From assembly GCF_030435705.1 (NCBI RefSeq), contig NZ_CP129380.1, positions 62,001 to 126,000 of the forward strand: a stretch of 64,000 bases of DNA. The letters run 5' to 3'. Shown here one piece after another: positions 1,079 through 35,192 of this stretch. The notes under the pieces were generated by a model. The model saw only the letters and a list, made by a program, of their open reading frames with translations. It had not been told where the DNA came from and did not search any database. The position numbers and the translations under genes are program-made. The DNA comes from Rhizobium sp. SSA_523. GTDB lineage: Bacteria > Pseudomonadota > Alphaproteobacteria > Rhizobiales > Rhizobiaceae. Each line of letters starts with the position of its first letter. Positions within the stretch are counted from its first letter, which is position 1.

Positions 1079-1741
1079 CTAGAAGGCTCCGACGGTGAAG
1101 CGTGGAAAGAGGACCTCATTTTCCAGATGCATGTGCTGGACGAGATCATCGGCAAACTTCTTTACGCCGGTATAAAGCGCGCGCCATGAGTTGCAGGCAC
1201 CGTCCGGCAGATGAAATCCGCCTGTCACGTGCTCCAGTTCCGCCAGATGCTGTGCCTCGACGTCATGTTCATGGCGCATCTGTTCGATGGGCATGCTCAG
1301 TGCTTGATGGTCGCCGCGTTCCATAGGCGGGAAGAGCATAAGCTCCTCTCGGTGCATATGGCTATGGAGATCGCTCTGGATACGCTCAAGGAGATTTGCC
1401 AGGCCGATCGGTGCATCGGGATGATCGCCATGCACCCGCTCGACCTTGGCGGCAAGCGGGATCAATGAGATGAGATCTGCACGATGGGTATCGTGGTAGC
1501 GTGTCCTGAGATGATTGATCAGATCGACTGTGCCATCCGGTGCTTCAGTCGATGCGGCGTCGACAAGGCCCTGCAATTCGTCCACCAGTGTCTCCGGTGA
1601 GAGGCCTGCAGCTTCGGCCGCAGCCCCGATGCTGTCAGAGCCACCGCAGCAGAAGCTGATGCCATGACGGCGGAAAAGTGCCGCTGCACCGGGGAGGGAG
1701 GTGGCGATCTTCCCGACCGTCTGGTTTGCGTTGAGTTCCAT
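1079..1741 (-). CDS. dnrN: iron-sulfur cluster repair di-iron protein (RIC family, YtfE/ScdA/DnrN)
   Basis: This 220-residue protein belongs to the RIC family, cytoplasmic di-iron proteins that restore Fe-S clusters damaged by nitric oxide or oxidants. The N-terminal ScdA domain has the expected F-C-C-G-G motif (Cys31-Cys32). The C-terminal hemerythrin-like part carries H-S-H-M-H-R-E-E near 126-133, E-H-D near 158-160 and H-M-H-L-E-N-E near 203-209, which are the family's metal ligands. ATG 1741 is preferred to the GTG at 1750 because AAGGTG lies at the right distance. A perfectly symmetrical FNR-type box lies upstream, so NO or low-O2 induction is likely. Confidence 0.93.
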   Translation of the reverse strand: MELNANQTVGKIATSLPGAAALFRRHGISFCCGGSDSIGAAAEAAGLSPETLVDELQGLVDAASTEAPDGTVDLINHLRTRYHDTHRADLISLIPLAAKVERVHGDHPDAPIGLANLLERIQSDLHSHMHREELMLFPPMERGDHQALSMPIEQMRHEHDVEAQHLAELEHVTGGFHLPDGACNSWRALYTGVKKFADDLVQHMHLENEVLFPRFTVGAF

Positions 1742-1815
1742 TGAGTTCACCTTGCTTGCGCTTCAATGCGTTATCGTTGTGGTCGCGACTATGGCGGGGA
1801 ATGCCGATCCGATCG

Positions 1816-1857: not shown

Positions 1858-2781
1858 TCAGGATGCGTGGGCGGTGTTTTTCGCCCGCGATACCCAGGCG
1901 GCCCCCTCTCGGGCATGATGAAAGCCGTTGGAAAACTTGGCCGTGGGATAACAATGCCCGATCAACGTGGCGGCTTCCTCAGGTCCCAGGCTGCCGGACA
2001 GCAATTCTCGAAAGATGGTAGCGATGCGCGCCATGTCGCAGTCCTGTGGTGAGAGACGGAAGGCATTGACCCCGGCCTCCTGCAAGTCGGTCAGTTCGCC
2101 GAGCAGGAGTTGGCACGTGTGCGACATCGTCTGCACGCCATTGAGCACCAGGAAAGACTGGCGGTCGAGTGTCTTGATTGGCAGACCATCCGGTTCTTCG
2201 CCACAGACGAACTGACAATTGTCCTTGATCCGGCCCTTGGAACGGGCATGGGCGCAGCGCGCCGATATGGCCAGCGGCATGCGACCGAACACCATGACTT
2301 CGAGAGCCACATCAGAGGCATCTTCGGCGATCCTAGCAATCGAGCTGAAAGGAAGTTCGGGCGGAAGACAGATGCGGTTTGCCCCGCGTAGTGCCATTAA
2401 GCGCGCCGTTGGACCGTTATAGACATTGATCAAGGGGCCAACGAGGTGTCGGCGGCCATTGATCAGGCCGATTGCGGAGAGATCGTTGACCTCTATAGCG
2501 TGGTCCGACGTCTCGATCAGCTCTTTCACCATCCGACTTTCTCGCTCCAAGGTGACGAGCGCCAGCGAGGAGAAGGCCACCGATTTTCCCGCCCGTTCCA
2601 GGCGCTCCACCACATCTGCCAAGTATGGCTCGATGAAATGCTGCCGTTTTGAGCAGACAGTCTCGCCGAGGATAATGCGATCCACGGGCGCTTCGTCTGC
2701 GATCCGATAATAGAAATCTCGCCATTTCGGGCCGTCCCATAGATAGTAGACGGGGCCCAGTGTCAGTTCGGTCATGCTCAT
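1858..2781 (-). CDS. ubiV: UbiV, O2-independent ubiquinone hydroxylation protein (U32 family)
   Basis: This is a 307-residue U32-family protein. UbiV pairs with UbiU to hydroxylate the ubiquinone ring without O2, using prephenate as oxygen donor in E. coli. Cluster cysteines are visible at 43, 176, 189 and 193; the spacing of the last three equals that of the 4Fe-4S ligands known in E. coli UbiV. The start codon overlaps the ubiU stop as ATGA, so the two are translationally coupled. The gene is the last of the leftward ubiT-ubiU-ubiV set and lets the cell keep making ubiquinone while it denitrifies. Confidence 0.92.
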   Translation of the reverse strand: MSMTELTLGPVYYLWDGPKWRDFYYRIADEAPVDRIILGETVCSKRQHFIEPYLADVVERLERAGKSVAFSSLALVTLERESRMVKELIETSDHAIEVNDLSAIGLINGRRHLVGPLINVYNGPTARLMALRGANRICLPPELPFSSIARIAEDASDVALEVMVFGRMPLAISARCAHARSKGRIKDNCQFVCGEEPDGLPIKTLDRQSFLVLNGVQTMSHTCQLLLGELTDLQEAGVNAFRLSPQDCDMARIATIFRELLSGSLGPEEAATLIGHCYPTAKFSNGFHHAREGAAWVSRAKNTAHAS

Positions 2782-3755
2782 CTCCAGCGCTTCTCATAGG
2801 CGCCGACCGTGGTCTTCTGCCCTTCGCTCAGCGCTCTCAGCCGGGTCAGCAAGGGGCCACGCCCCGAGGGGGCGGTTGCGAGCACCTGGCGCAGCGTCGA
2901 TACGACCTCGGCCACGTAGGCTTTGCCGCGCTGGCGTCCCTCAATTTTCAAGGCGCAGACACCGGCATCCTTCAAGGCTTCGATTTCGCCCATGACGTCG
3001 AGGGACACTGGGTCTTCGAAGGCGTAACCACGGGCATCGCCGATGTCGAAACGCCCCTTGCAAAGCGTGGGATAACCAGCGGCCTCGCCTTGGCTGAAGC
3101 GGTTGATCGTATAGGTGCCGAGCTCTGACACCATGTCGGAGCCGTCCTGTCGGTACCGCACATGGCTCGCCGGGGAGCAGACGCCGTTCATATTGGGCGA
3201 TTTGCCGGTGGCGTAGGATGAAAGCGAGCAGCGTCCCTCGGCCATGACGCAAAGCCCGCCGAAAACAAAGACCTCGATCTCGCATTTAACCTTGCGACCA
3301 ATGCGGGCAATGTCGCCGATCGTCAGCGTTCTCGGCAACACGACCCGTTTTGCGTCGAAGGCTTCGACGAGAAAATTGATCGCTTCGGGATTGGAAGCAG
3401 ACGCCTGGACCGAAACATGCAAGCGCTGCTCTGGATAGTGTTCCCTGACATGGGCCATGAGGCCGAAATCGGCTAGGATCAGCGCATCGGCACCGAGCCT
3501 TACCGCGTCGGCCGCCGCGCGATACCAGATCTCTTCGTCGCCAGCCCGCATGAAAGTGTTGAGGGCGACAAATGTCATGCAGCCTTTGTTGCGGGCATAG
3601 ACAATCGCGTCTCGCAGCTCATCTCGGCTGAAATTGAGGCCGGGAAAATTGCGGGCATTGGTCTCGTCGCGGAAGCCGCAATAGACCGCATCAGCGCCTG
3701 CATCGACGGCTTCACGAAATGCGGCTGGTGTTCCCGCCGGACAGATCAGTTCCAT
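2778..3755 (-). CDS. ubiU: UbiU, O2-independent ubiquinone hydroxylation protein (U32 family)
   Basis: A 325-residue U32-family protein beginning M-E-L-I-C-P-A-G-T-P, the usual UbiU start. Cysteines at 169, 176, 193 and 232 fall at the same residue numbers as the 4Fe-4S ligands of E. coli UbiU, which also supports the ATG at 3755 over the GTG at 3758. A GAGGGAGA ribosome site precedes it. The start shares a base with the ubiT stop (TGATG) and the end overlaps ubiV, so the three genes form one transcript. It works as a heterodimer with UbiV in anaerobic ubiquinone synthesis. Confidence 0.93.
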   Translation of the reverse strand: MELICPAGTPAAFREAVDAGADAVYCGFRDETNARNFPGLNFSRDELRDAIVYARNKGCMTFVALNTFMRAGDEEIWYRAAADAVRLGADALILADFGLMAHVREHYPEQRLHVSVQASASNPEAINFLVEAFDAKRVVLPRTLTIGDIARIGRKVKCEIEVFVFGGLCVMAEGRCSLSSYATGKSPNMNGVCSPASHVRYRQDGSDMVSELGTYTINRFSQGEAAGYPTLCKGRFDIGDARGYAFEDPVSLDVMGEIEALKDAGVCALKIEGRQRGKAYVAEVVSTLRQVLATAPSGRGPLLTRLRALSEGQKTTVGAYEKRWR

Positions 3756-4258
3756 CACCGGATCTCCCTCAGCGACCGGCTTCGGATTTCCACGGCCAGC
3801 CTGTGAACGACGGGGGCGGCCGGTCCCCCGATCCGCGCGAGATCACGCGGAAGGTCGATATCGCAGTCATCAAGTGCGTTTCTCATCGCAAGCATGGCCT
3901 CCATGTCTCCGATCACCTTCAAGTCGCGGGAAAAGAACAGGGCATCAGCATCACAACGCCCCTCAAGGAGTGCCAGCAGTGTTACCAGCGGGGCCTCGAC
4001 ACCCGCATCCGCTGTGAAGGTATCGCCTTTGCGCAACACAGTGAGATGAGGGACGCCAGGCTCGATGAGGAAGACGAGGGGTAGGTCCGTTGGAGCAAAC
4101 GAAAAGCGGCAGCTTTTGTATGTGCCAAGGCGCTCGAACATATCGCCATGAGCTAGGAGCAGGAGCTTGAAAAGGCGACGTGCAACGAGCTCAATTGGCA
4201 CGAGCGGCATGAGCGGCACGGCTTTCAGCGGGAGAGCCAGAATGGATGTTGTCTGCAT
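3755..4258 (-). CDS. ubiT: UbiT, SCP2-type lipid-binding accessory protein for anaerobic ubiquinone synthesis
   Basis: A 167-residue protein with an SCP2 (sterol carrier) fold pattern in its centre. UbiT is the lipid-binding partner needed for O2-independent ubiquinone synthesis and probably presents the prenylated ring intermediates to UbiU-UbiV. The N-terminus (about residues 5-35) is hydrophobic, which may help it touch the membrane. It heads the leftward ubiT-ubiU-ubiV operon and is divergent from ubiD. The short intergenic region holds two FNR-type boxes. Confidence 0.88.
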   Translation of the reverse strand: MQTTSILALPLKAVPLMPLVPIELVARRLFKLLLLAHGDMFERLGTYKSCRFSFAPTDLPLVFLIEPGVPHLTVLRKGDTFTADAGVEAPLVTLLALLEGRCDADALFFSRDLKVIGDMEAMLAMRNALDDCDIDLPRDLARIGGPAAPVVHRLAVEIRSRSLREIR

Positions 4259-4275
4259 TGCGCCAATTTTGATGG

Positions 4276-4289
4276 TTGAACCGGCGCAA
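4276..4289. promoter_or_regulatory. FNR/NnrR box A between ubiT and ubiD
   Basis: TTGAACCGGCGCAA, centre 4282.5, fits TTG-N8-CAA. It would place a rightward start near 4324 (42 bases before ubiD). A leftward start would fall near 4241, inside the assigned ubiT frame. Confidence 0.65.
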
Positions 4290-4316
4290 ACCTATGAGAA
4301 CGGCCGACAATCCAGA

Positions 4317-4330
4317 TTGCTCCAGCGCAA
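4317..4330. promoter_or_regulatory. FNR/NnrR box B between ubiT and ubiD
   Basis: TTGCTCCAGCGCAA, centre 4323.5, is exactly 41 bases from box A. Read leftward it predicts a start near 4282 with a TAGGTT hexamer as -10, 24 bases before the ubiT ATG. Read rightward the start would be at 4365, one base before the ubiD ATG. Confidence 0.65.
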
Positions 4331-4365
4331 AGACGTAACCGAATTCACAGGTCATAGCGGTCCGC

Positions 4366-5889
4366 ATGACACAGAACGCACCGCCTCGTCGCTACGACGG
4401 TCTTCAAGCTTTCATGACCGAACTGGAAAAGCGAGGACGGCTTATCCGCGTCTCGCGGCCGGTGAGCCTTGTCCATGAGATTACGGAAATCCACAGGCGG
4501 GTTCTGGCAGAGGTAGGCCCGGCCTTGCTCTTTGAGCGCCCGGTCCGGGCAGACGGTGCAGTGTCAGAAATACCGCTGCTTGCCAATCTGTTCGGCACGC
4601 GCGAGCGGATCGAACTTGGCTATGGCATCCCTGGCGGCAAGATCGGCGATCTCGCGGACCTTCTGGCCGAATTGCGCGAACCGAGGCCGCCGGCGTCGCT
4701 CCGGGATGCCTTGAAGAAACTGCCTGTGCTTCGCTCCGCCATGGCGCTGGGATGCCGCAGGATGTCTCACGCCGAATGCCAGGACATCGTGTTCGAAGGT
4801 GAGGCTGTTGATCTCAGTCGGCTGCCGATCCAGTGGTGCTGGCCCGGCGAACCGGCACCGCTAATCACCTGGGGGCTTGTCGTCACCGCCTCGCCCTCCG
4901 ACCCTAAGGATGTCAATGTCGGCGTCTACCGGCTGCAAGCCCTGGACCGCAGGCGGTTGATCACGCGCTGGCTTGCCCATCGTGGTGCTGCAAAACATTT
5001 CCGGCAGTGGCAGTCCGTGGGGCGGGACATGCCCATTGCGGTCGTAATCGGCGCTGATCCGCAGACAATCCTCTCCGCCGTCATGCCGCTGCCGGAGACA
5101 ATGAGCGAGCTTTCGTTCGCCGGTGTGCTCAGAGGAAGGCGCGCCCATGTGGTGCGGGCGCTCACCCAGCCGCTAGATATTCCAGCCACTGCAGAAATTG
5201 TTCTGGAGGGGGCCGTTTCGATCGCGGACACCGCACTTGAGGGCCCCTATGGCGACCACACGGGCTACTACAATTCCGTCGAACCGTTTCCCCTCATGAC
5301 CTTGAGCGCGATGACGATGCGGCAGGATCCTGTTTACCTCTCGACCTTCACCGGTCGTCCGCCAGACGAGCCTTCGGTGCTTGGAGAGGCGATGAATGCC
5401 CTCTTCCTTCCCCTCGTCAAGCGCCAGTTTCCGGAGATCGTCGATCTCTATTTGCCTCCTGAAGCGTGCTCCTACCGGGCGATCGTCGTGTCGATCGACA
5501 AGCGCTATCCGGGGCAAGCCCGCCGGATCATGCTCGGGCTTTGGTCGATGCTGCCGCAGTTCAGCTACACCAAGCTCATCATCGTGGTCGATGCCGATGT
5601 TGACGTCAGAAACTGGAGCGACGTCATCTGGGCGCTTTCCACGCGGTTCGACGCCTCCCGCGATCTGGTGGTGGTGGATAACACGCCCATCGACTACCTC
5701 GATTTTGCCTCTCCCAAGCCTGGGCTCGGTGGAAAGCTCGGTCTCGATGCCACCAACAAGCTTGGCGCAGAAACCGATCGGGAATGGGGCCGCGTGCTGC
5801 AAATGACGCCGGAGGTCTCGGCGCGCGTCGATGCGATCTGGCGCGAACTTGGACTTGGATCCCTCAAGACAAGGGAAGGTGAGCCATGA
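4366..5889 (+). CDS. ubiD: UbiD-type prenylated-FMN-dependent decarboxylase
   Basis: A 507-residue UbiD family protein, the usual length. In ubiquinone synthesis UbiD removes the carboxyl group from 3-octaprenyl-4-hydroxybenzoate (or its longer-chain analogue), using prenylated FMN made by UbiX. Family features include the N-terminal L-E-K-R-G-R-L-I-R-V segment and the G-P-Y-G-D-H-T-G-Y-Y cofactor-site region in the middle. No clear ribosome site precedes the ATG. The last codons overlap ubiX by four bases. Linkage to ubiTUV argues for the quinone pathway rather than another aromatic-acid decarboxylation. Confidence 0.9.
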   Translation: MTQNAPPRRYDGLQAFMTELEKRGRLIRVSRPVSLVHEITEIHRRVLAEVGPALLFERPVRADGAVSEIPLLANLFGTRERIELGYGIPGGKIGDLADLLAELREPRPPASLRDALKKLPVLRSAMALGCRRMSHAECQDIVFEGEAVDLSRLPIQWCWPGEPAPLITWGLVVTASPSDPKDVNVGVYRLQALDRRRLITRWLAHRGAAKHFRQWQSVGRDMPIAVVIGADPQTILSAVMPLPETMSELSFAGVLRGRRAHVVRALTQPLDIPATAEIVLEGAVSIADTALEGPYGDHTGYYNSVEPFPLMTLSAMTMRQDPVYLSTFTGRPPDEPSVLGEAMNALFLPLVKRQFPEIVDLYLPPEACSYRAIVVSIDKRYPGQARRIMLGLWSMLPQFSYTKLIIVVDADVDVRNWSDVIWALSTRFDASRDLVVVDNTPIDYLDFASPKPGLGGKLGLDATNKLGAETDREWGRVLQMTPEVSARVDAIWRELGLGSLKTREGEP

Positions 5890-6455
5890 TGAGGCGTGTC
5901 ATTCTCGGCATGTCCGGTGCTTCGGGGGCGGCGATCGGTCTTCAGGTCGGCCGGCTCCTGGCGGCCATGGATGATGTTGAACTGCATCTCGTCGTCACGT
6001 CAGCAGCGCGCCGGACAATCGCACATGAGGCGGGCAACGAGGCGCTGGGGCGGCTAATCGGGCTCGCTGCTCATTTCCATTCGGAAAGCGATATCGGTGC
6101 ATCGATTGCCAGCGGATCATTCCGCACGGCCGGTATGATCGTCGCCCCTTGTTCGATGCGGTCTCTTGCAGCGATCTCGACCGGGATAACCGACAATCTT
6201 CTCACTCGCGCCGCCGATGTGCAGCTCAAGGAGCGTCGCAGGCTGGTTCTCCTTGCCCGCGAAACGCCGCTTCACCTCGGGCACCTGCGCAACATGGCGG
6301 CGGTGACCGAGATGGGGGCTGTGGTGATGCCGCCGGTCCCCTCATTCTACCGCAATCCAGCGAGCGTAGAGGATCTCGTCGCTCATATTGCGGCTCGTGC
6401 CGTGGATCTGCTCGGGTTGACGGACGCACCCTTGATACCGGAGTGGAGAGGGTGA
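5886..6455 (+). CDS. ubiX: UbiX flavin prenyltransferase
   Basis: A 189-residue UbiX family protein with the N-terminal flavin-binding sequence G-M-S-G-A-S-G-A-A-I-G and the C-terminal P-P-V-P-S-F-Y segment typical of the family. It attaches a dimethylallyl group to FMN to make the prenyl-FMN cofactor that UbiD needs. The start ATG overlaps the ubiD stop (ATGA), and AAGGTGAGCC precedes it, so the enzyme and its cofactor supplier are made together. Nothing is missing compared with known UbiX proteins. Confidence 0.93.
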   Translation: MMRRVILGMSGASGAAIGLQVGRLLAAMDDVELHLVVTSAARRTIAHEAGNEALGRLIGLAAHFHSESDIGASIASGSFRTAGMIVAPCSMRSLAAISTGITDNLLTRAADVQLKERRRLVLLARETPLHLGHLRNMAAVTEMGAVVMPPVPSFYRNPASVEDLVAHIAARAVDLLGLTDAPLIPEWRG

Positions 6456-14584: not shown

Positions 14585-14740
14585 TCATTGGCCCAGAAAC
14601 AGGACGACGCCGATGACAAGCGAAGCCAGCACGGCAGCAAGCGTGCCGCCGCCCTGCAGTACGCCCATGCGCTTCAGCATCAGGGCAAAGCCCATGATGA
14701 CAGGTGTCGCAACGATAAGGCCGATCTGTGCATCCGTCAT
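14585..14740 (-). CDS. 51-residue membrane peptide in the nnr group
   Basis: A short frame (51 residues, M-T-D-A-Q-I-G-L-I-V) with two hydrophobic segments, about residues 6-22 and 33-50, joined by a basic, glycine-rich loop. It ends ten bases before the hemerythrin-like gene and is the first gene of the leftward nnr group; the norE promoter region lies behind it. I do not recognise the family. The position beside nnrU recalls nnrT of Rhodobacter, but I cannot compare the sequences. Gene status rests on position, hydrophobicity and lack of any rival frame. Confidence 0.55.
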   Translation of the reverse strand: MTDAQIGLIVATPVIMGFALMLKRMGVLQGGGTLAAVLASLVIGVVLFLGQ

Positions 14741-14751
14741 TTCCAGTCATT

Positions 14752-14779
14752 CCCTTCTGTTCTGGCCCTTCTGTTCTGG
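14752..14779. repeat. 14-bp tandem duplication upstream of norE
   Basis: CCCTTCTGTTCTGG occurs twice in direct succession (14752-14765 and 14766-14779). It lies between the FNR-type box and the start of the 51-residue gene, in what would be its leader. Confidence 0.8.
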
Positions 14780-14811
14780 AAGCACTCTGCCTTGTCTTTC
14801 GTCAGTCTTCT

Positions 14812-14825
14812 TTGCGCTCCCACAA
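14812..14825. promoter_or_regulatory. FNR/NnrR box shared by norE and the nnr group
   Basis: TTGCGCTCCCACAA, centre 14818.5. Rightward it predicts a start near 14860, 18 bases before norE. Leftward it predicts a start near 14777, 37 bases before the 51-residue gene. One site could therefore serve both operons. Confidence 0.7.
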
Positions 14826-14877
14826 AGAGCGCTTCAGTTTTTTCTCTAGAAAGGATCCCAAAACGGGAGAACTGACG

Positions 14878-15423
14878 ATGGCCATGGAAACGAGCCTCCA
14901 GCAGGAGGCAAAGGACGACCACCTGCTGCTCTGGATCCTGGTGTGGAGCGAGTTGATCGCTTTCGGCATCCTGATCCTGGGCTTCCTCGTCGTCTCGACC
15001 TTCGATGCAGAAGCCTTCGAACTGGCGCGTCTGCATTTGAGGCCGGGGATCGCCGGCGCGAACACGCTTGTCCTGCTGGTCAGCGGGTACTTTGTCGCCG
15101 TTGCGATGCGCAATCGGCTTGATCTTGAGGCGGTGAAACGGCCGTTGGTCATTGCAGCTCTGCTTGGCTTCTGCTTTGTGGCGGTCAAGCTCTTCGAATA
15201 TTGGGGTGAGGTCCGCTTCGCTGCCGATGCGACGCTCGATACCTTTTTCGAGCTCTATTTCATCATCACCGGTTTCCATCTGCTGCATGTCGCCTTCGGG
15301 GCCATCGCGCTTCTCCTGGTCGCCTGGCGCCCGGCACGGGAAAATCTGGTTCTGATCGCCACACTCTGGCACGTGATCGACCTCGTCTGGTTGGTGATCT
15401 TTCCCATTCTCTATCTCGCGTGA
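14878..15423 (+). CDS. norE: NorE, cytochrome c oxidase subunit III-like protein
   Basis: A 181-residue membrane protein with about five segments, related to cytochrome oxidase subunit III. NorE is not part of the purified NO reductase but improves its activity or assembly. The ATG at 14878 follows GGGAGA at a good distance; a second in-frame ATG two codons later is possible. It starts the rightward nor gene set, with norF eight bases further on. Expression should follow the FNR-type box upstream. Confidence 0.9.
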   Translation: MAMETSLQQEAKDDHLLLWILVWSELIAFGILILGFLVVSTFDAEAFELARLHLRPGIAGANTLVLLVSGYFVAVAMRNRLDLEAVKRPLVIAALLGFCFVAVKLFEYWGEVRFAADATLDTFFELYFIITGFHLLHVAFGAIALLLVAWRPARENLVLIATLWHVIDLVWLVIFPILYLA

Positions 15424-15430
15424 GGCCATC

Positions 15431-15706
15431 ATGACCCGCAGACAGCACGAGGAATTGGTGGGTGTGCTCGCCATGCTGATGACCTTCGCGATTGGCGGCG
15501 CAATTGTTGCGGCGCTCGCAGGTCCAACCATCGTACCGATTGCCGCAGTTCTTGGGATTGCGTTTGCCAAGGGACGGCTTGTGATTCTCGACTTCCTCGA
15601 ACTCAGGGGCGGGCATCACCCCATGCGGATCGCGCTCATCTGCTGGTTAAGTATCATTCTGATCGCTGCACTGTCGCGGTCGCTGGTGGTCCTTCTGTTG
15701 GCTTGA
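15431..15706 (+). CDS. norF: NorF, small nitric-oxide-reductase accessory membrane protein
   Basis: A 91-residue protein with three hydrophobic segments, similar in layout to cytochrome oxidase subunit IV. NorF is found with NorE in proteobacterial nor clusters and supports NO reductase function. It has the family's F-L-E-L-R-G-G-H-H-P-M segment in the middle. It lies eight bases after norE. The gap to norC (153 bases) holds a separate FNR-type box, so norEF and norCBQD can be transcribed separately. Confidence 0.88.
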   Translation: MTRRQHEELVGVLAMLMTFAIGGAIVAALAGPTIVPIAAVLGIAFAKGRLVILDFLELRGGHHPMRIALICWLSIILIAALSRSLVVLLLA

Positions 15707-15722
15707 ACATTCGCCCGGTTGC

Positions 15723-15736
15723 TTGCCGAAGCGCAA
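15723..15736. promoter_or_regulatory. FNR/NnrR box for norC
   Basis: TTGCCGAAGCGCAA, centre 15729.5, predicts a class II start near 15771, 89 bases before the norC ATG. Confidence 0.7.
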
Positions 15737-15859
15737 AGAACGACGCCGGACACTCTGTATGAAAAGAACATCCCGCAAAGCTGGCGAGGGGATCGCCGGA
15801 GCCTTCGAAGCGGGCAAACCAGGTCGGGCCTCTTGCCCGGCAGACGGAAGGACAAGGGT

Positions 15860-16312
15860 ATGGCAGAGCGCCTGACCAAGACCGGAGCGCGCAACGTCTT
15901 TTATGGCGGCTCCATTTTCTTTTTTGCGATCTTCGTCGGGCTCACGGCCCACAGCCATTACTACATGCGCACCACCTCTACGGACGAGACGACGCTGACC
16001 GCCAGCGTCGCCCGCGGCAAGCATATCTGGGAAAAGAACTCCTGTATCAACTGCCACTCGATCCTGGGCGAGGGCGCCTATTTTGCCCCCGAGCTCGGCA
16101 ATGTCTGGACCCGGTGGGGTGGCCAGGAGGACCGGGACAGCGCCCGCGAGACGCTTCGAGCCTGGATGGCCGCACAGCCATCCGGCGTCGAGGGCCGCCG
16201 GCAGATGCCGCAGTTCAACCTGACCGACGAAGAGATCAACGACCTCGCCGACTTCCTCGAATGGACCAGCAAGATCAAGACGCAGAACTGGCCGCCGAAT
16301 GAGGCGGGCTGA
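15860..16312 (+). CDS. norC: nitric oxide reductase cytochrome c subunit
   Basis: A 150-residue NorC. One membrane anchor lies near residues 14-31 and is followed by a periplasmic cytochrome c domain with a single haem site C-I-N-C-H (Cys62, Cys65, His66). The distal methionine is likely in R-R-Q-M-P-Q-F near 115. NorC passes electrons from a periplasmic carrier (here probably pseudoazurin or cytochrome c) to NorB. It is the first gene of norCBQD. Confidence 0.96.
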   Translation: MAERLTKTGARNVFYGGSIFFFAIFVGLTAHSHYYMRTTSTDETTLTASVARGKHIWEKNSCINCHSILGEGAYFAPELGNVWTRWGGQEDRDSARETLRAWMAAQPSGVEGRRQMPQFNLTDEEINDLADFLEWTSKIKTQNWPPNEAG

Positions 16313-16340
16313 GCCCTTCGTGACCCAAGGAGACAAACCC

Positions 16341-17687
16341 ATGAAATATCAAAGCCAGAAGGTCGCGATGCTGTATTTCTACGGCGCGCTCGGCCTCTTC
16401 CTCGCTCAGGTTCTCTTCGGCGTGCTGGCCGGCACGATCTACGTCCTGCCCAATACGCTCTCCGAGCTCCTGCCCTTCAACATCGTGCGTATGATCCATA
16501 CCAACGCCCTGATCGTCTGGTTGCTGATGGGCTTCATGGGCGCGACGTATTATTTGCTGCCGGAAGAGGCGGAGACGGAGCTTTACAGTCCAAAGCTTGC
16601 CATCGCGCAGTTCTGGGTCTTTTTGGTTGCCGCTGCCGCCGCCGTCGTCGGTTACCTCTTCGGCATCCATGAGGGCCGCGAGTTTCTCGAGCAGCCCTTC
16701 ATCATCAAGGTCGGCATCGTCATTGTCGCTTTGATGCTGCTGTTCAATGTCACCATGACGTCGCTGAAGGGCCGCAAGACCGTCGTCACCAACATCCTGA
16801 TCTTCGGGCTATGGGGCGTGGCGATCTTCTTCCTCTTTGCCTTCTACAACCCGACCAATCTCGCGCTCGACAAGATGTACTGGTGGTATGTCGTCCATCT
16901 CTGGGTCGAAGGCGTCTGGGAGCTGATCATGGCATCGGTGCTCGCCTTTCTGATGATCAAGCTCAACGGCATTGACCGCGAAGTCGTGGAGAAGTGGCTC
17001 TACGTGATTATCGGTCTGGCGCTTTTTTCCGGCATCCTCGGCACGGGTCACCACTATTACTGGATCGGCGCGCCGGGCTACTGGCAGTGGATCGGCTCGC
17101 TCTTCTCGACGCTTGAAGTCGCGCCCTTCTTCACCATGGTCATCTTCACCTTCGTCATGACCTGGAAAGCTGGCCGCAAGCACCCGAACCGTGCGGCACT
17201 TCTTTGGTCGATCGGCTGCTCGGTCATGGCCTTTTTCGGTGCCGGCGTCTGGGGTTTCCTGCACACGCTGTCGTCGGTCAATTACTACACCCATGGCACA
17301 CAGGTGACGGCAGCCCACGGACACCTCGCCTTCTTCGGCGCCTATGTTATGCTCAATCTTGCGATCATGGCCTATGCCATTCCTGAAATGCGCGGCCGGC
17401 AGCCCTATAATCAGTGGCTTTCGATCACGAGCTTCTGGATGATGTGCACCGCCATGTCGGTGATGACCTTTGCGCTCACCTTTGCCGGTGTCCTGCAGGT
17501 GCATCTGCAGCGCGTGCTCGGCGAAAGCTACATGGCCGTCCAAGACCAGTTGGCGCTGTTCTACTGGGTGCGCCTCGGCTCCGGTGCTGTCGTGCTGGTC
17601 TCCGCTCTGATGTTCGTCTGGGCCGTATTGGTGCCAGGCAAGGAAAAAGAGCCTGCCTTTGGCGGCTATGTCGAGCCTGCCGAATGA
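16341..17687 (+). CDS. norB: nitric oxide reductase large subunit
   Basis: A 448-residue twelve-helix haem-copper family protein that reduces two NO to N2O using haem b and a haem b3/non-haem iron centre. Visible ligand regions include V-H-L-W-V-E-G-V-W-E, with the iron histidine and glutamate, G-H-H-Y-Y-W near 235-240, and the C-terminal H-G-H-L-A-F-F-G-A-Y. It lacks the N-terminal cytochrome or quinol-oxidising extension, so it is the cNor type that needs NorC. The start has AAGGAGAC at the right distance. Confidence 0.97.
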   Translation: MKYQSQKVAMLYFYGALGLFLAQVLFGVLAGTIYVLPNTLSELLPFNIVRMIHTNALIVWLLMGFMGATYYLLPEEAETELYSPKLAIAQFWVFLVAAAAAVVGYLFGIHEGREFLEQPFIIKVGIVIVALMLLFNVTMTSLKGRKTVVTNILIFGLWGVAIFFLFAFYNPTNLALDKMYWWYVVHLWVEGVWELIMASVLAFLMIKLNGIDREVVEKWLYVIIGLALFSGILGTGHHYYWIGAPGYWQWIGSLFSTLEVAPFFTMVIFTFVMTWKAGRKHPNRAALLWSIGCSVMAFFGAGVWGFLHTLSSVNYYTHGTQVTAAHGHLAFFGAYVMLNLAIMAYAIPEMRGRQPYNQWLSITSFWMMCTAMSVMTFALTFAGVLQVHLQRVLGESYMAVQDQLALFYWVRLGSGAVVLVSALMFVWAVLVPGKEKEPAFGGYVEPAE

Positions 17688-17694
17688 TACAGCG

Positions 17695-17722
17695 GCCCCG
17701 CTGGTCATAAAAGCAGCGGGGC
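17695..17722. terminator. hairpin between norB and norQ
   Basis: A perfect 9-bp stem (GCCCCGCTG / CAGCGGGGC) with a 10-base loop lies 8 bases after the norB stop. No long T run follows, so it may lower read-through into norQD or protect the norCB message. Confidence 0.6.
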
Positions 17723-17748
17723 TCTTCCAATCTTGAAGGATCAGCATC

Positions 17749-18552
17749 ATGAATATCATCGCGCGTAACATTCAGCCGGATATCCCGGCCTATTCCCCCG
17801 CCGGCAACGAATGTGCCCTGTTCGAAACCGCCTGGACACGGCAGTTGCCGCTTCTCCTCAAAGGGCCGACAGGCTGCGGCAAGACCCGTTTTGTCAGCCA
17901 TATGGCGCAGAAGCTCGGTCTGCCGCTGACCACCGTGTCTTGCCACGACGATCTGGCTGCTGCCGATCTCACCGGCCGATTTCTGCTTAAGGGCGGAGAG
18001 ACGGTCTGGACCGATGGACCGCTGACCAGGGCCGTTCGAGAAGGTGGTGTCTGCTATCTCGACGAAGTGGTTGAGGCCCGCAAGGACGTCGCCGTCGTGC
18101 TGCATCCTCTGACCGACGACCGGCGCATCCTGCCCTTGGAGCGCACAGGCGAAGAGCTCGAAGCGCCGCCGGCCTTCATGCTCGTCGTCTCCTACAACCC
18201 CGGCTACCAGAGCCTGCTCAAGGCCCTCAAGCCCTCGACCCGTCAGCGTTTCGTTGCCATCGAATTCGACTTCCTGCCCAAAGCGCGAGAGATTGAGGTT
18301 GTCTCGGCAGAGAGCGGACTGTCTGCCTCGGCTGTAGAGCCGTTGGTCGAACTGGCTCGGCGGCTGCGGGCGCTGAAGGGGCATGACCTGGAAGAAGGCG
18401 TGTCGACGCGTCTGCTCGTCTATTGTGCAAGCCTCATTGACGCCGGTCTGTCGCCGCGCGACGCCGTTCGCGCCGCCATGATTGAGCCCCTGACCGACGA
18501 ATCCGATGTGCGCACTGCGCTTCTGGAACTGGCGCAGGCGGTGATCCGCTAG
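17749..18552 (+). CDS. norQ: NorQ, MoxR-type AAA+ ATPase
   Basis: A 267-residue AAA+ protein with Walker A G-P-T-G-C-G-K-T at about 39-46 and Walker B C-Y-L-D-E-V near 103-108. NorQ works with NorD to activate NO reductase, probably by remodelling it so that the non-haem iron is inserted. GAAGGATC precedes the ATG. It is followed by norD after nine bases. The hairpin before it suggests that less of it is made than NorCB, which suits a chaperone. Confidence 0.95.
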   Translation: MNIIARNIQPDIPAYSPAGNECALFETAWTRQLPLLLKGPTGCGKTRFVSHMAQKLGLPLTTVSCHDDLAAADLTGRFLLKGGETVWTDGPLTRAVREGGVCYLDEVVEARKDVAVVLHPLTDDRRILPLERTGEELEAPPAFMLVVSYNPGYQSLLKALKPSTRQRFVAIEFDFLPKAREIEVVSAESGLSASAVEPLVELARRLRALKGHDLEEGVSTRLLVYCASLIDAGLSPRDAVRAAMIEPLTDESDVRTALLELAQAVIR

Positions 18553-18561
18553 GAGAATGTC

Positions 18562-20460
18562 ATGCTCGATTTCTTAGAGCTTGAGGAGACAGTCGGGCGC
18601 GCCTGGCACAGGCTTGCAGGCGACACCCGCACCTGGCCGCGCTATCCCGAAGCGGCCGTCATGCTGGAAGACGTGCTTCCGGTGCTCTCCGTCTGCTTTC
18701 GCGGCTTTGGCGGTGAACGGACGGTGCAACTGGTGCCGGCACGGGGCAAGACCTTGCAACACCGGTTGAAGTTTCGCCAACGCATGGGGCTGGGCGAAGA
18801 AAAGCTCATTCATCCGGCGCGGGACGAAGCTAGCGTGATGTTGCCCCCAGTCTTGGATCTCATGCCGGAGCAGTCGCTCAATCTCGACCTCTATGTGTGG
18901 CTCGCGGCTGCCATGGCGGTGATGCCGCTTCGACCGATGTCCGAAACCGATCCCCTCAGGGCAGATCTCGACCTCCTCGACGCGGCGTCGACCCTCGAAG
19001 CCGAGGTCCTTAAAACCTTTCCCGGTCTCGTCGATCGCTATCGCAGGCTTTGCCGCGCCCTTCTTGCGGAGCGCAGACGCGGCTCGCTTCCGCGAGTGGA
19101 AGGCATTTTGGAAGACCGCATCATCGATCTCCTGCGCGGGGGCGCAGGCCTTGCTCCGCTTTCGGCTGGGGATGAATTGCCGGACCGGGCACCTGCGGGG
19201 TACCTGCCGATGTTGCCGGTGCCGCTTTGGCCTCGGGCGGTCATCAGAGAAGAATGGACCGGCCGTCAGGAGATGGATCAGCCGGTCGGTTCGGGTCAGG
19301 CGGATGCACAAGCTGCCGGGCGTCACGTGGCGACACGCGAAAAGGCCTCTTCCGCCAAGGGGGAGCGCAGCCCCTTCATCCTCAACCGCTTTGAAAAGAT
19401 CTTGGCCATGGCGGAGATGGTAAACGTCGATCGCCCCGCCGACGACAGCGACGATCACGATGCGTCGGCCGCCGATGAACTCGACGAGATGGTGCTCGGC
19501 GAGCGCAAGGGCCGACCCTCGGCGAAGTTTCGCTTCGACCTCGACCTGCCGCCAGAGGCGCTGAACCATTCCCCACTCGAAGCCGATCTCACCTATCCGG
19601 AATGGGACTATCGTCGCGGGGTCTACCTGAAGGATCATTGCCGCGTGGTGGCAGGTCCTGCTCCGAGCGATGAGGCCAGTCCGATCGCATCGGAGGAGAT
19701 GAAGGCGCTGATCCGTCGCGTGCGGCGGCAGTTCGAGGCGATGCGTCCCCGCCATGAAATGTTGCGCGCCCAGGTCGATGGCGCCGATCTGGATCTTGAT
19801 GCGGTGGTGCGTAGCCGAACGGAGCTCGTCGCCAGCGGCGAATGCTCTGATCGCATCCATTTGTCGAGCCGCCCACAGGCTCATGATCTGGCGGTGACGC
19901 TCCTCGTGGATGTCTCGCTATCGACCGATGCCTGGTTCAATGACCGCCGGGTGCTCGATGTGGAGAAAGAGGCCCTGCTGGTGCTGGCCGAAGGACTCGC
20001 CGCCTGCGGCGACCTGCATTCCATCTTGAGCTTCACGTCCAGGCGGCGCGATTGGGTCCGTGTTGAGACAGTGAAGGATTTCGACTCGCCGATGAGCGCC
20101 GTTGTGCGCCACCGGATCGCGGCTCTGAAACCCGGCTATTACACCCGAATGGGTGCAGCAATCCGCCACGCCTCGGCCAAGCTTGCCGAACGGCCAAACA
20201 GGAAACACCTGCTGCTGGTTTTGACCGACGGCAAGCCGAATGATGTCGATCACTACGAGGGACGTTATGCGCTTGAAGACACGCGTCGGGCCGTGAGCGA
20301 AGCGAGGCGGCGTGGCATCCATGTCTTCGGCGTCACGGTTGATCAGGATGCCAAGACCTATGTGCCTGCCGTCTTCGGCCACCACGGTTATGCTGTCGTG
20401 CCCGATATCCGCCGCCTGCCGGCCGCTTTGCCACAAATCTACCGCGCGCTCATCCGCTGA
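18562..20460 (+). CDS. norD: NorD, von Willebrand factor A protein for NO reductase activation
   Basis: A 632-residue soluble protein. The C-terminal third is a VWA domain with the metal-site motif D-V-S-L-S near residue 452 and a later T-D-G-K-P. Most of the rest is charged and without known motifs. NorD partners the AAA+ protein NorQ, as VWA/MoxR pairs do, to mature NorCB. AGGAG is placed just before the ATG. A strong hairpin follows the gene and ends the norCBQD unit. Confidence 0.95.
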   Translation: MLDFLELEETVGRAWHRLAGDTRTWPRYPEAAVMLEDVLPVLSVCFRGFGGERTVQLVPARGKTLQHRLKFRQRMGLGEEKLIHPARDEASVMLPPVLDLMPEQSLNLDLYVWLAAAMAVMPLRPMSETDPLRADLDLLDAASTLEAEVLKTFPGLVDRYRRLCRALLAERRRGSLPRVEGILEDRIIDLLRGGAGLAPLSAGDELPDRAPAGYLPMLPVPLWPRAVIREEWTGRQEMDQPVGSGQADAQAAGRHVATREKASSAKGERSPFILNRFEKILAMAEMVNVDRPADDSDDHDASAADELDEMVLGERKGRPSAKFRFDLDLPPEALNHSPLEADLTYPEWDYRRGVYLKDHCRVVAGPAPSDEASPIASEEMKALIRRVRRQFEAMRPRHEMLRAQVDGADLDLDAVVRSRTELVASGECSDRIHLSSRPQAHDLAVTLLVDVSLSTDAWFNDRRVLDVEKEALLVLAEGLAACGDLHSILSFTSRRRDWVRVETVKDFDSPMSAVVRHRIAALKPGYYTRMGAAIRHASAKLAERPNRKHLLLVLTDGKPNDVDHYEGRYALEDTRRAVSEARRRGIHVFGVTVDQDAKTYVPAVFGHHGYAVVPDIRRLPAALPQIYRALIR

Positions 20461-20531: not shown

Positions 20532-21884
20532 TCAGGCCGCCGTGGCGTGGGTTCTGCCCGTCTCGCCGAGATAGGCATCGAAGCACGACGCCACCGTTCT
20601 AACCAGGAACCTGTGCTCTGTCTCGACGCGTAGCACATCGCCACGCCAGCTCACGATCCCTTCCTCCACCAAAGTCCTAAGCCGCGAATTTGCTTCACCC
20701 ATGCTCTCGTAGGAGAGCTCGAAGCCCTCCGGCATGGCTCCGAAGTCAACCTGGAAGTCGCACATCAGGCGCTCGATAATCCAGCCCCGGATGCGGTCCT
20801 CCAGTGTCAGGCGGTAGCCTTTTGACGTGGCGAGTTCACCGGACGAGATGAGATTGGCATATCTGCCGATCGCGACGTCGTTCTGTGCGTAGCCTTCAGC
20901 AAAACGCCCGATCGCTGAGGAGCCGAATCCGATCAGCGTAGATGCGTTGTCGGTCGTATATCCTTGGAAGTTGCGATGCAGTGTCTGGTTATCAGCTGCG
21001 ATTGAAAGCGTGTCTTCGGGCAGCGCAAAATGATCGAGACCGATGCGGCGGTAACCGGCTTCGCACAGCGCTATTGCGATGGCTTCCGCCTGTGCGTGTC
21101 GCTCATGCGCATCGCCAAGGGCTGCCGCGTCGATTAGGCGCTGATGCTTCTTGAAGCTCGGCACATGCGCGTAGCCGAACACGGCGAAGCGGTCCGGACG
21201 CATGGCCGCAGCCACACGCGCAGTTTCGATCGCAGACTCCACGGTCTGATGGGGCAGACCGTAGATCAGGTCGAAGTTGACGCTTTTTGCACCTGCTTTG
21301 CGCAGATGATAAAGGGCCGTTGCGGTTTGCTCTGCCGACTGGATGCGATTGATCGCCTTTTGCACCTTCGGATCGAAACTCTGCACCCCGAGACTGGCCC
21401 TTGTGATTCCCGCCTCGCCGAGAGCCTCCGCCATTTCAAGGGTCAACGTTCGTGGATCGATTTCTACCGCGACTTCGGTCGCGCTGCTAATGCCGAAGGT
21501 GGCCGCCAGCGTGGCTGTCAGATCGAGAAATTCAGTCGGCGTCATGATGGTCGGCGTGCCGCCGCCGAAGTGAATATCACTGACGCTCTGTCGTCCCCCC
21601 ATCGCTTTTCCCACTGAGCGAATTTCCTGCTTTAGGATGGTCAGGTAGTCGAGGATCGGCGCGTCCTTTTGGGTGATCGTGGTGTGGCAACCGCAATACC
21701 AGCACATGGATCGACAAAAAGGCACATGCAGATACAGCGACACCGGATCATTTTGCGGAATCGACATCAACCAGTCGCGGTAGGTGCCCGCGCCTATGCT
21801 GGTGGAAAAACGGGGCGCTGTCGGATAGCTCGTGTAACGCGGCAAGCGGCTTTCGCCATAACGGCGGATTATGTCTGCATTCAT
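20532..21884 (-). CDS. hemN: oxygen-independent coproporphyrinogen III dehydrogenase
   Basis: A 450-residue radical SAM enzyme. The cluster motif is C-R-S-M-C-W-Y-C, with the C-x3-C-x2-C spacing of HemN and the extra G-C-H after it. H-F-G-G-G-T-P-T follows. It makes protoporphyrinogen IX without O2, which the cell needs for haem and cytochromes when it denitrifies. I chose the ATG at 21884 (M-N-A-D-I-I-R-R-Y-G). An FNR-type box sits 60 bases upstream. Length and C-terminal domain match true HemN rather than HemW. Confidence 0.94.
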   Translation of the reverse strand: MNADIIRRYGESRLPRYTSYPTAPRFSTSIGAGTYRDWLMSIPQNDPVSLYLHVPFCRSMCWYCGCHTTITQKDAPILDYLTILKQEIRSVGKAMGGRQSVSDIHFGGGTPTIMTPTEFLDLTATLAATFGISSATEVAVEIDPRTLTLEMAEALGEAGITRASLGVQSFDPKVQKAINRIQSAEQTATALYHLRKAGAKSVNFDLIYGLPHQTVESAIETARVAAAMRPDRFAVFGYAHVPSFKKHQRLIDAAALGDAHERHAQAEAIAIALCEAGYRRIGLDHFALPEDTLSIAADNQTLHRNFQGYTTDNASTLIGFGSSAIGRFAEGYAQNDVAIGRYANLISSGELATSKGYRLTLEDRIRGWIIERLMCDFQVDFGAMPEGFELSYESMGEANSRLRTLVEEGIVSWRGDVLRVETEHRFLVRTVASCFDAYLGETGRTHATAA

Positions 21885-21937
21885 TGTATCGCTCCGGTTT
21901 GATGCCGTCACGATAGAGGCCCGCCCCGAGGCCTTCC

Positions 21938-21951
21938 TTGTCGAAAGGCAA
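21938..21951. promoter_or_regulatory. FNR/NnrR box for hemN
   Basis: TTGTCGAAAGGCAA, centre 21944.5, predicts a leftward start near 21903, 19 bases before hemN. It is exactly 41 bases from the box that serves the divergent DUF2249 gene. Confidence 0.7.
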
Positions 21952-21978
21952 AGAGGAGCGCGGCTTTCCCGGTTTTGC

Positions 21979-21992
21979 TTGTCACAGCACAA
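21979..21992. promoter_or_regulatory. FNR/NnrR box for the DUF2249 gene
   Basis: TTGTCACAGCACAA, centre 21985.5, predicts a rightward start near 22027, 56 bases before the DUF2249 ATG. Confidence 0.7.
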
Positions 21993-22082
21993 CGAACGCT
22001 TCGGACGATAGGCTATTCGATTGTCCTGTGGAGCAGCCGAGCTGTCCCGACTGAAGCCCGACCATTGGAAGAAAGCAATCGA

Positions 22083-22364
22083 ATGACTGTTGTCGAAGAT
22101 CATATACTGAAACTAGATGTGCGTGAGATTCCCCATTGGGAGCGGCATCCCCGCATATTCGGCATGTTGAATTCACTGCTCCCAGACTATGAGCTGATCC
22201 TGACCGTCGATCATGATCCGGTTCCGCTCTATTACCATCTTGAAATGCATTATGATGGGATGTTCGGGTGGGAATACTTGATGCGGGGTCCGGAGATATG
22301 GGAAGTTCGCATTCGCCGGAAGAAACACGAAGGCTGCAACTGCAACTGCGGTGGTGGTCATTGA
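22083..22364 (+). CDS. DUF2249 protein with cysteine-rich tail
   Basis: A 93-residue protein that starts at M-T-V-V-E-D-H-I; the longer upstream frame covers the promoter region and is unlikely. The body (L-D-V-R-E-I-P ... P-L-Y-Y-H-L-E-M) matches DUF2249, a small alpha/beta fold often found with denitrification, hemerythrin and NO genes. The C-terminus is C-N-C-N-C-G-G-G-H, which could bind a metal. Function is unknown. Control by the FNR-type box upstream fits a role in N-oxide respiration. Confidence 0.82.
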   Translation: MTVVEDHILKLDVREIPHWERHPRIFGMLNSLLPDYELILTVDHDPVPLYYHLEMHYDGMFGWEYLMRGPEIWEVRIRRKKHEGCNCNCGGGH

Positions 22365-24333: not shown

Positions 24334-24411
24334 CTAAATCCTTGAAGGGTGAAGTACAACAGTACCAGCAGTTCGAGCGGGACGCTCACTGGCTCACAAG
24401 GAGATAAGAGC

Positions 24412-25551
24412 ATGACTCAGATCCTCACATTAACAAGACGCACGATGCTGGCCGGAGCGGTTCTGGCGACTGCTCTCATGCCGATGATCACCGCAACCGC
24501 GGTCCGCGCCGAGGGCGGCGATATTAAAACGAACGCCGCAGCCGTCGAAGCAGACATTGCCAAGCTGCAACGGGTCAAGGTTGATCTGGTCACGCCGCCC
24601 TTCATCCATGCGCATAGTCAAAAGGCCGAAGGTGAACCGAAGGTCGTCGAATTCACGCTGACCATCGAAGAAAAGAAGATCATTGTCGATGACGCTGGTA
24701 CCGAGGTCCATGCCATGACCTTCAACGGTTCTGTCCCCGGCCCGATGATGGTCGTCCATGAAGGTGACTATGTCGAGGTGACACTCATCAATCCGGCCAC
24801 CAACAGCTTGCAGCACAATATTGATTTCCATTCGGCAACCGGTGCACTTGGCGGTGGGGCGCTGACGCTGGTCAATCCGGGGGAAAGCGCGGTTCTGCGC
24901 TTCAAGGCCACCAAGGCCGGCGTCTTCGTCTACCACTGCGCACCTCCCGGCATGGTCCCGTGGCACGTAACATCGGGCATGAATGGCGCGATCATGGTTT
25001 TGCCGCGCGAGGGTCTGAAGGACCACAAGGGCAATGACCTCGTCTATGACAAGGCCTATTATGTAGGCGAACAGGACTTCTACGTGCCGAAGGACGAAGA
25101 CGGCAACTACAAGAAATACGAGAGCGCCGGTGATGCTTATGCCGATGTGCTTGAAGTCATGAATACACTGACCCCGAGCCATATCGTGTTCAACGGTGCC
25201 GTCGGCGCGTTGACCGGCGACCATGCGATGACGGCGGAAGTCGGGGACCGGGTGCTGATCCTGCATTCGCAGGCCAATCGCGACACCCGGCCGCACCTGA
25301 TCGGAGGCCATGGAGATTATGTCTGGGCAACCGGCAAGTTCGCCAATCCGCCGGAACTCGATCAGGAAACCTGGTTCATTCCTGGAGGTGCCGCAGGCGC
25401 CGCCTACTACACCTTCCAGCAGCCGGGCATCTACGCCTATGTCAACCACAACCTGATCGAGGCCTTCGAGAAGGGGGCTGCCGCCCACTTCAAGGTCACC
25501 GGCGACTGGAACGACGATCTGATGACCGCGGTGGTCAAGCCGGAAAGCTGA
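24412..25551 (+). CDS. nirK: copper-containing nitrite reductase
   Basis: A 379-residue two-cupredoxin-domain enzyme that reduces nitrite to NO in the periplasm. The N-terminus ([10 protein letters not shown]) resembles a twin-arginine signal cleaved after A-V-R-A. Type 1 and type 2 copper ligands are visible in L-Q-H-N-I-D-F-H-S, in [18 protein letters not shown] and later in H-L-I-G-G-H. CAAGGAGAT gives a strong ribosome site. The neighbours nirV, nnrR and pseudoazurin are its usual partners. A hairpin follows. Confidence 0.97.
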
Positions 25552-28675: not shown

Positions 28676-28677
28676 CT

Positions 28678-35191: not shown

Positions 35192-35192
35192 C

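Follow-up and report, generated by a model that had tools for sequence, protein, structure and literature searches.

Candidate genes for oxygen-independent ubiquinone synthesis within a denitrification island of Rhizobium sp. SSA_523

Results

Gene content and integrity of the module

We analysed a stretch of 64,000 nucleotides from Rhizobium sp. SSA_523 (C2:62001-126000, hereafter the window), whose genome, with 5,475,343 bases in 4 contigs, is rated 100% complete. Positions 1858-6455 of the window hold two divergent groups of genes, ubiT-ubiU-ubiV and ubiD-ubiX (Table 1), with the order and identities that an earlier note on this DNA had given, as judged from open reading frames (ORFs) and profile matches. 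The first three genes are contiguous, and UbiT, UbiU and UbiV each score above their NCBIfam cut-offs. The ubiU ORF opens with GTG, and the ATG one codon downstream, at 3755, which overlaps the ubiT stop, is likely to be its true start. On the other side, the start of ubiX overlaps the stop of ubiD, so that a UbiX over its cut-off is paired with UbiD. The assignment of UbiD itself needs more care: it obtains 464 bits with the UbiD subfamily model (cut-off 244.85) and 614 bits with the E. coli-type equivalog model PRK10922, under the cut-off of 788, and therefore we hold our claim to a member of the UbiD family that is nearest to E. coli UbiD. The latter is its nearest solved sequence, with 582 bits, and the next family member reaches 147 bits.

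All five frames of the module are open. Counted from the ATG, UbiU has cysteines at exactly 169, 176, 193 and 232 (170, 177, 194 and 233 from the GTG), as the earlier note had read them, and in E. coli UbiU the ligands are reported at these very positions (PMC6747719). The spacing that the note had seen in UbiV is likewise kept, namely, C43, C176, C189 and C193, which fit the published ligand pattern CXnCX12CX3C (PMC6747719). With their cysteine ligands kept, the enzymes look intact.

Table 1. Features of the window discussed in the text. Positions are those of the window; scores are in bits.
Feature	Position	Strand	Description and evidence
ric	1079..1750	-	RIC/YtfE-type iron-sulfur repair protein; TIGR03652 214, cut-off 204.7
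ubiV	1858..2781	-	4Fe-4S U32 protein, oxygen-independent ubiquinone hydroxylation; NCBIfam NF047965 360, cut-off 275
ubiU	2778..3758	-	NCBIfam NF047963 483, cut-off 440
ubiT	3755..4258	-	SCP2-domain accessory factor; NCBIfam NF047962 68.3, cut-off 46.9; Pfam PF02036
TTGAACCGGCGCAA	4276..4289		CRP/FNR-superfamily box in the divergent ubiT-ubiD promoter region; centre 24 bp from ubiT, 83 bp from ubiD
TTGCTCCAGCGCAA	4317..4330		Second TTG-N8-CAA box of the ubiT-ubiD gap
ubiD	4366..5889	+	Prenylated-flavin mononucleotide (FMN) 3-polyprenyl-4-hydroxybenzoate decarboxylase; only UbiD-family match of the genome
ubiX	5886..6455	+	Flavin prenyltransferase; 243, cut-off 188; only UbiX match of the genome
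norE-C-B-Q-D	14728..20460	+	Homologous block in many compared loci; names given from order and kin
hemN	20532..22103	-	Oxygen-independent coproporphyrinogen III oxidase; TIGR00538 422, cut-off 325
TTGCTCCAGCACAA	24320		nirK box, upstream of nirK
nirK	24349..25551	+	Copper nitrite reductase; TIGR02376 550, cut-off 296
CRP/FNR-family regulator	26596..27318	+	NnrR candidate; PF00325 at C2:89145; FtrB, CRP, FixK and FNR models all under cut-off
napC and napA	27965..31673	-	Periplasmic nitrate reductase with quinol dehydrogenase; TIGR02161 317, cut-off 311; TIGR01706 1587, cut-off 931
fixK-, fixJ- and fixL-type regulators	33434..36755	-	FixJ over cut-off; FixK and FixL models under
nosR-Z-D-F-Y-L-X	36941..45571	+	Nitrous oxide reduction; F, Y, L and X named from order

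Copy number and oxygen-dependent monooxygenases

Genome-wide searches gave one match to the UbiD family (PF01977) and one to UbiX (TIGR00421), both in the window, together with one UbiU. Thus, a second ubiD/ubiX copy, which the earlier note had suspected here, is rejected. The related idea that the pair is dedicated to anoxic conditions fares better: it is probably right as to the dedication and falls as to the spare copy. Coq4 (PF05019) had no match in the genome.

The search for oxygen-dependent hydroxylases that the note had proposed found two proteins of the UbiH/UbiF type, which we call UbiL-like, and one UbiN-like protein, all on contig C4. Six of 17 genome matches to FAD_binding_3 cover most of a monooxygenase. 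The two UbiL-like proteins obtain 563 bits with PRK07494 (cut-off 459) and 701 bits with PRK07333 (cut-off 549). The UbiN-like protein (C4:814737-815900) is salicylate-hydroxylase-like, and its nearest solved sequences, under their deposited names, are 8gsm, a '4-hydroxybenzoate decarboxylase' (169 bits), 8r2t, an unnamed flavin adenine dinucleotide-binding protein, and 8x38, a 'decarboxylative vanillate 1-hydroxylase'. The chemistry of these relatives is close to that reported for UbiN of Rhodobacter capsulatus, and the protein, compared with that enzyme by reported chemistry, may be its ortholog.

Co-occurrence of UbiD and ubiTUV in Rhizobiaceae

The family survey covered 151 Rhizobiaceae genomes, the window's own included. 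UbiU scored over cut-off in 35 of them, a 21-position fragment (G045) and a 192-bit match (G093) being counted as negative. UbiD-family matches of any kind occurred in 36 genomes, exactly the same 36 that have UbiX over cut-off, which leaves 115 with none. A UbiD of the ubiquinone (UQ) type, 53-96% identical to that of the window in the 23 loci compared, was present in 24 genomes, all of them UbiU-positive, and in 0 of the 116 UbiU-negative genomes (24/35 against 0/116; Fisher p = 9e-20, uncorrected for kinship). The remaining 12 of the 36 lack UbiU. These 12 genomes account for 19 of 23 further UbiD-family loci that are only 24-36% identical to the window UbiD (the one in G077 is cut by a contig end), the other four being extra copies in the UbiU-positive genomes G052, G075 and G106. 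In Rhizobiaceae, UQ-type UbiD is strictly tied to ubiTUV, a point that we add here. The distance from ubiD to ubiU is within about 3 kb in 22 of the 24 genomes.

The module is split in G047 (L106/L107) and G140 (L121/L122), both of the window's genus, with ubiX near ubiTUV and ubiD on another contig, where it adjoins napA, napC and ric. In G147 (L125), the ubiD frame is broken into two open pieces and ubiX has an in-frame stop beside an intact ubiTUV, which may reflect decay or sequencing error.

A UbiN-like protein was found in 151 of 151 genomes (E up to 1e-30), and this presence throughout makes a catabolic salicylate hydroxylase hardly credible. Among this genome's own six monooxygenases, the UbiN-like protein was the best match in 48 of 48 fetched loci, a comparison that covered 45 genomes, three of them seen twice. 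Outside this set, weaker matches come from, among others, three small genomes (G005, G076 and G093). Five other small genomes (G006, G044, G072, G091 and G111) have the UbiN-like gene and no UbiD. Coq4, considered as an aerobic decarboxylase, was set aside: it had no match in the 151 genomes, in a search that may miss divergent bacterial Coq4, to judge from 14 control genomes of which only one, a cyanobacterium, matched.

A ubiTUV lineage without UbiD and UbiX

The 35 UbiU proteins, of which the one from G130 is cut by a contig end, fall into two groups in a tree: one of 25, made up of the 24 genomes with UbiD plus G097 without it, and one of 10, none of which has UbiD, UbiX over cut-off or a Coq4 match. 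The UbiD label changes twice on this tree, against a mean of 9.6 in shuffles, and 0 of 500 shuffles were as low. The ten genomes are G021, G025, G040, G053, G065, G066, G085, G123, G129 and G150 (loci L091-L097 and L099-L101).

No candidate decarboxylase was found adjoining ubiTUV in the 11 UbiD-less genomes, four of whose loci (L092, L095, L096 and L101) span less than 15 kb because contigs end nearby. When ORFs of the 11 loci were clustered, UbiT, UbiU and UbiV occurred in all 11 and one large mixed cluster in 9, the latter being present also in 23 of the other loci; no other cluster occurred in more than 4 of the 11. Twenty chosen neighbours were examined, of which 15 match Pfam families that have no evident link to precursor decarboxylation and 5 match none. 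An apparent UbiT fusion of 722 amino acids in G097 was discarded as merely an upstream read-through of the frame.

With UbiU of G085 as query, the top plasmid record (66%) is a Thioclava plasmid on which ubiTUV has nnrS and nnrU as neighbours; the 15 kb shown contain no ubiD. On this plasmid (Thioclava sp. FTW29, L255), a small protein annotated as of the carboxymuconolactone decarboxylase family lies at 10811-11122, three genes from ubiTUV, although such a family assignment does not by itself point to precursor decarboxylation.

Related loci beyond the survey

A scan of species genomes (GTDB set) recovered 112 relatives of the window UbiD, of which the best 80 were kept as named loci, so that this sample leans towards the window's lineage. 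In all 80, ubiTUV stands beside ubiD with ubiU on the opposite strand, and ubiX lies in the examined stretch of 73. At least one of 18 denitrification or nitric oxide-response markers was found in the flanks (up to 8 kb) of 55 loci. The same layout, adjoining nor genes, occurs on pSymA of Sinorhizobium meliloti 1021. Four loci of Martelella (L161, L163, L165 and L167) and two of Sinorhizobium (L159 and L202) have ubiD-ubiTUV with no ubiX match within the examined 17 kb.

TTG-N8-CAA boxes between the operons

The gap between ubiT and ubiD contains two TTG-N8-CAA sites of the CRP/FNR superfamily. The canonical FNR sequence is TTGAT-N4-ATCAA, and the inner bases of both sites differ from it; the FNR-type boxes of the earlier note are thus retained as superfamily sites and given up as canonical FNR sequences. 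Presumably, they belong with NnrR/DNR sites, which they resemble. The second, TTGCTCCAGCGCAA at 4317, is one base apart from the nirK box TTGCTCCAGCACAA, and an identical copy of it stands in the ubiD-ubiT gap of S. meliloti 1021 pSymA.

Such sites are enriched in the window as a whole, with 40 against 16.7 expected, a number that 0 of 100 shuffles reach. Across 102 homologous ubiT-ubiD gaps (the 80 named loci, 21 unnamed ones and the window), which are related and hence not independent, 100 hold a site against 5.6 expected from composition, and the largest shuffle gave 12. The two gaps that lack it, those of L105 and L119, are both 40% G+C; these two loci gave no codon-based gene calls, and genes were placed by homology instead. 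With gene starts projected from those of the window, the distance from site to start is for the most part 41-45 bp for ubiD and 65-73 bp for ubiT.

The claim that the module shares the control of the reductases is borne out in part, as far as predicted sites go: the same type of box precedes nirK and nosR, as well as norE provided that the norE start annotated in Allorhizobium pseudoryzae is used, and none was assigned to nap. Box-to-start distances count for ric, ubiT, ubiD, nirK and nosR only. The arms are symmetric in a further TTG-N8-CAA site (TTGCGTTTTCGCAA, 1816-1829), which stands upstream of ric in the interval between that gene and ubiV. Two CRP/FNR-family genes are located on C2, namely the FixK-like gene and that at 26596-27318, and four on other contigs.

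The surrounding island and its contig

The earlier note placed the module within a denitrification island, and indeed genes for nitrate, nitrite, nitric oxide and nitrous oxide reductases lie nearby (Table 1). NCBIfam named no nor gene in the window at the thresholds used; the first genes of the nor block are annotated on a plasmid of A. pseudoryzae as cytochrome c oxidase subunits 3 and IV and as cytochrome c. Among the nos products, NosR obtained 810 bits (under the cut-off of 1000), and NosZ and NosD, with 1094 and 457 bits, were both over theirs. NCBIfam also identifies a pseudoazurin in the island. Since hemN is present as well, oxygen-free replacements for both quinone and haem synthesis sit with the reductases.

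The circular plasmid of A. pseudoryzae (156,789 bp) carries a counterpart of 1858-6455 that is 92% identical over the whole stretch. Its annotated genes, namely ric, two U32 proteins, SCP2, UbiD, UbiX, two NnrS and an ATP-binding cassette (ABC) transporter, and then NnrU, hemerythrin and cytochrome genes, follow the order of the window. Because this counterpart sits on a circular plasmid, contig C2 (227,819 bases) is probably a plasmid as well. An EamA-type transporter and a YafY-like (HTH/WYL) regulator at 6562-8248, between ubiX and the nnrS-like genes, look inserted, because they are missing at that place from the A. pseudoryzae plasmid (L253) and from G054 (L110). Between the nnrS-like and nnrU-like genes, an ABC transporter (ATPase, permease and substrate-binding protein; 10711-13301, minus strand) is closest to models of taurine, sulfonate and nitrate types, all under cut-off, and is present on the A. 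pseudoryzae plasmid.

Discussion

A conditional route to ubiquinone

Denitrifiers without menaquinone must make ubiquinone without oxygen or dilute it out. With gene identities, ligand residues, single-copy status, boxes, cross-genome linkage and the presence of the oxygen-dependent enzymes established directly, we infer function, regulation and the assignment of monooxygenases to steps. On these grounds the five genes would be a kit for steps of ubiquinone synthesis that are otherwise closed to this organism when oxygen is absent, a reading to which we give a probability of roughly 0.8. In air, loss of the C1 carboxyl and hydroxylation at C1, C5 and C6 would fall to oxygen-using enzymes with genes on C4, namely the UbiN-like flavin monooxygenase and the pair of UbiL-like monooxygenases. 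Without oxygen, UbiX would make prenylated FMN, UbiD would take off the carboxyl non-oxidatively, and UbiU-UbiV with UbiT would hydroxylate from an oxygen-independent donor, the prenylation and methylation enzymes (UbiA, UbiE and UbiG) being common to both routes. Joint activation of the two ubi operons with nirK, nor and nos would be due to a regulator of the CRP/FNR family, NnrR or FixK being the likeliest. If UbiN-type decarboxylative hydroxylation operates in air, UbiDX would be needed only without oxygen, as in R. capsulatus. The module is, in sum, very probably intact and what the earlier note took it to be, minus the second copy.

A wider proposal, which we advance tentatively and at somewhat less than even odds, is that removal of the C1 carboxyl is oxygen-conditional throughout Rhizobiaceae. 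The core genome would encode only an oxygen-dependent UbiN-type route, and the non-oxidative UbiDX would persist only as cargo of islands for anaerobic respiration, carried with ubiTUV. Lacking UbiDX and Coq4, the lineage of ten genomes should therefore use either an undescribed oxygen-independent decarboxylase or a UbiN fed by traces of oxygen.

Several observations weigh against the reading of the five genes as such a kit. In R. capsulatus, expression and function of ubiD are reported in air as well (PMC10626278), and therefore an exclusive anoxic need should not be equated with exclusive anoxic expression. None of the 18 markers occurs in the flanks of 25 of the 80 named loci, so denitrification is not the only setting of the module. 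Eleven Rhizobiaceae have ubiTUV with neither UbiD nor UbiX; it follows that UbiDX is not obligatory for every holder of UbiTUV. Among 289 alphaproteobacteria, 29 have UbiU over cut-off and 124 have UbiD-family genes, and in the 28 other UbiU-positive genomes UbiD is linked to UbiU in at least 3, lies elsewhere among the places listed in 19 and has no match in 6. Linkage, here a lower bound, is thus rare outside Rhizobiaceae; a general association across Alphaproteobacteria finds no support in those 28 genomes, and the tight pairing belongs to Rhizobiaceae and some relatives rather than to the whole class. Finally, the UbiN-like protein obtains 350 bits with its closest NCBIfam model, PRK06475, under the cut-off of 524.

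Rhizobiaceae make ubiquinone in air, and yet 115 of the 151 genomes have no UbiD-family match and 127 none of the UQ type, the UbiN-like gene being found in every one, the small UbiD-less genomes among them. This renders it improbable that UbiD-UbiX is a housekeeping decarboxylase for both conditions that lies on the island by chance, although it is the sole such pair of the genome, the E. coli pair serves both pathways (PMC6747719) and UbiD is reported to work in air in R. capsulatus (PMC10626278). A different objection is that aerobic decarboxylation in Rhizobiaceae is the work of some other enzyme and not of the UbiN-like protein. The score of this protein under the NCBIfam cut-off would agree with that, as would the unidentified aerobic replacements invoked by the authors of the Hyphomicrobium denitrificans study (PMC12423496) and the caution of the UbiN authors that some homologs may not serve ubiquinone synthesis (PMC10626278). 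We nevertheless consider it unlikely, given that the gene is universal in the survey, that it is the best match in every fetched locus, and that its nearest solved sequences include, by their deposited names, decarboxylating 4-hydroxybenzoate hydroxylases.

Two further possibilities concern the module itself. The UbiD family is large and has many catabolic members, and the 23 additional loci of the survey are of other types, so that a role of UbiD-UbiX in aromatic-acid catabolism rather than ubiquinone synthesis could be imagined; the proximity to E. coli UbiD (582 against 147 bits), the low identity of those 23 loci and the tracking of ubiU by UQ-type UbiD make it exceedingly improbable. That the module is a decaying, non-functional passenger of a mobile island might be argued from the broken ubiD and ubiX of G147 and from G097, whose ubiTUV falls in the same clade and which lacks ubiD. 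Against this stand the five open frames, the preserved ligand cysteines, the 92% identity of the A. pseudoryzae copy and the conserved box, and we regard such decay as very unlikely here.

The locus suggests that in Rhizobiaceae oxygen-independent replacements move together with the reductases, with hemN joining them for haem. The pSymA layout of S. meliloti 1021 offers a clean genetic test of UbiN and UbiDX as condition-specific alternatives. The ubiTUV lineage without UbiDX, in turn, opens to comparative genomics in Rhizobiaceae the question of anoxic precursor decarboxylation raised by Rhodovulum and Rhodomicrobium, phototrophs that the UbiN paper describes as having UbiN and lacking UbiD (PMC10626278).

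Comparison with known systems

A close parallel is ubiXDTUV of H. denitrificans (Hden_0564-0568), where the same five genes, with single-copy ubiD and ubiX, lie by nitric oxide reductase genes and are co-regulated with denitrification (PMC12423496). Its authors suspected an aerobic substitute for UbiDX. Here, in contrast, the operons are divergent, they share a 228-kb contig with genes of the nir, nor, nap and nos sets, and a candidate substitute, the UbiN-like protein, can be named. In R. capsulatus, as reported, UbiN and two UbiL act in air, UbiN carrying out a decarboxylative C1 hydroxylation of 3-decaprenyl-4-hydroxybenzoate; ubiD and ubiX form one operon, and UbiDX and UbiUV mutants grow normally in air and fail to grow anaerobically (PMC10626278). 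Unlike the organism studied here, R. capsulatus is a phototroph, and it was assayed under anaerobic light (PMC10626278).

In Rhodobacter sphaeroides, a single FnrL site, TTGATgtagGTCAA, lies between two operons, RSP0466-4 and RSP0467-8, and separates genes of the U32-family and lipid-carrier types from ubiD (PMC2908626). Judging from the printed annotations, these operons would be homologs of ubiTUV and ubiDX; their site is of the canonical FNR type, unlike the boxes described here. UbiTUV of E. coli are the same proteins with the same cysteine ligands, and the difference resides in UbiD and UbiX, which in E. coli are common to the aerobic and anaerobic routes (PMC6747719). Across Pseudomonadota, compact ubiTUV loci with a predicted FNR site upstream in 1362 of 1566 have been reported in a study whose main text never names UbiD or UbiX and so leaves their linkage to ubiTUV untreated (PMC11707229). 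Nor is this linkage treated in the pertinent passages of papers on the Paracoccus ubiTUV operon (PMC10878069) and on compact ubi loci of Desulfobacterota and Magnetococcia (PMC13386864).

Searches of the open-access literature found no publication on UbiN in Rhizobiaceae or on UbiD-less ubiTUV lineages of this family. We do not claim that the layout itself is absent from print, and both the gene set and an anoxic-only need for UbiDX are already published for relatives. What the present comparison adds to those systems is the link between missing UbiDX and a universal UbiN-like gene, together with a ubiTUV lineage that has no UbiD.

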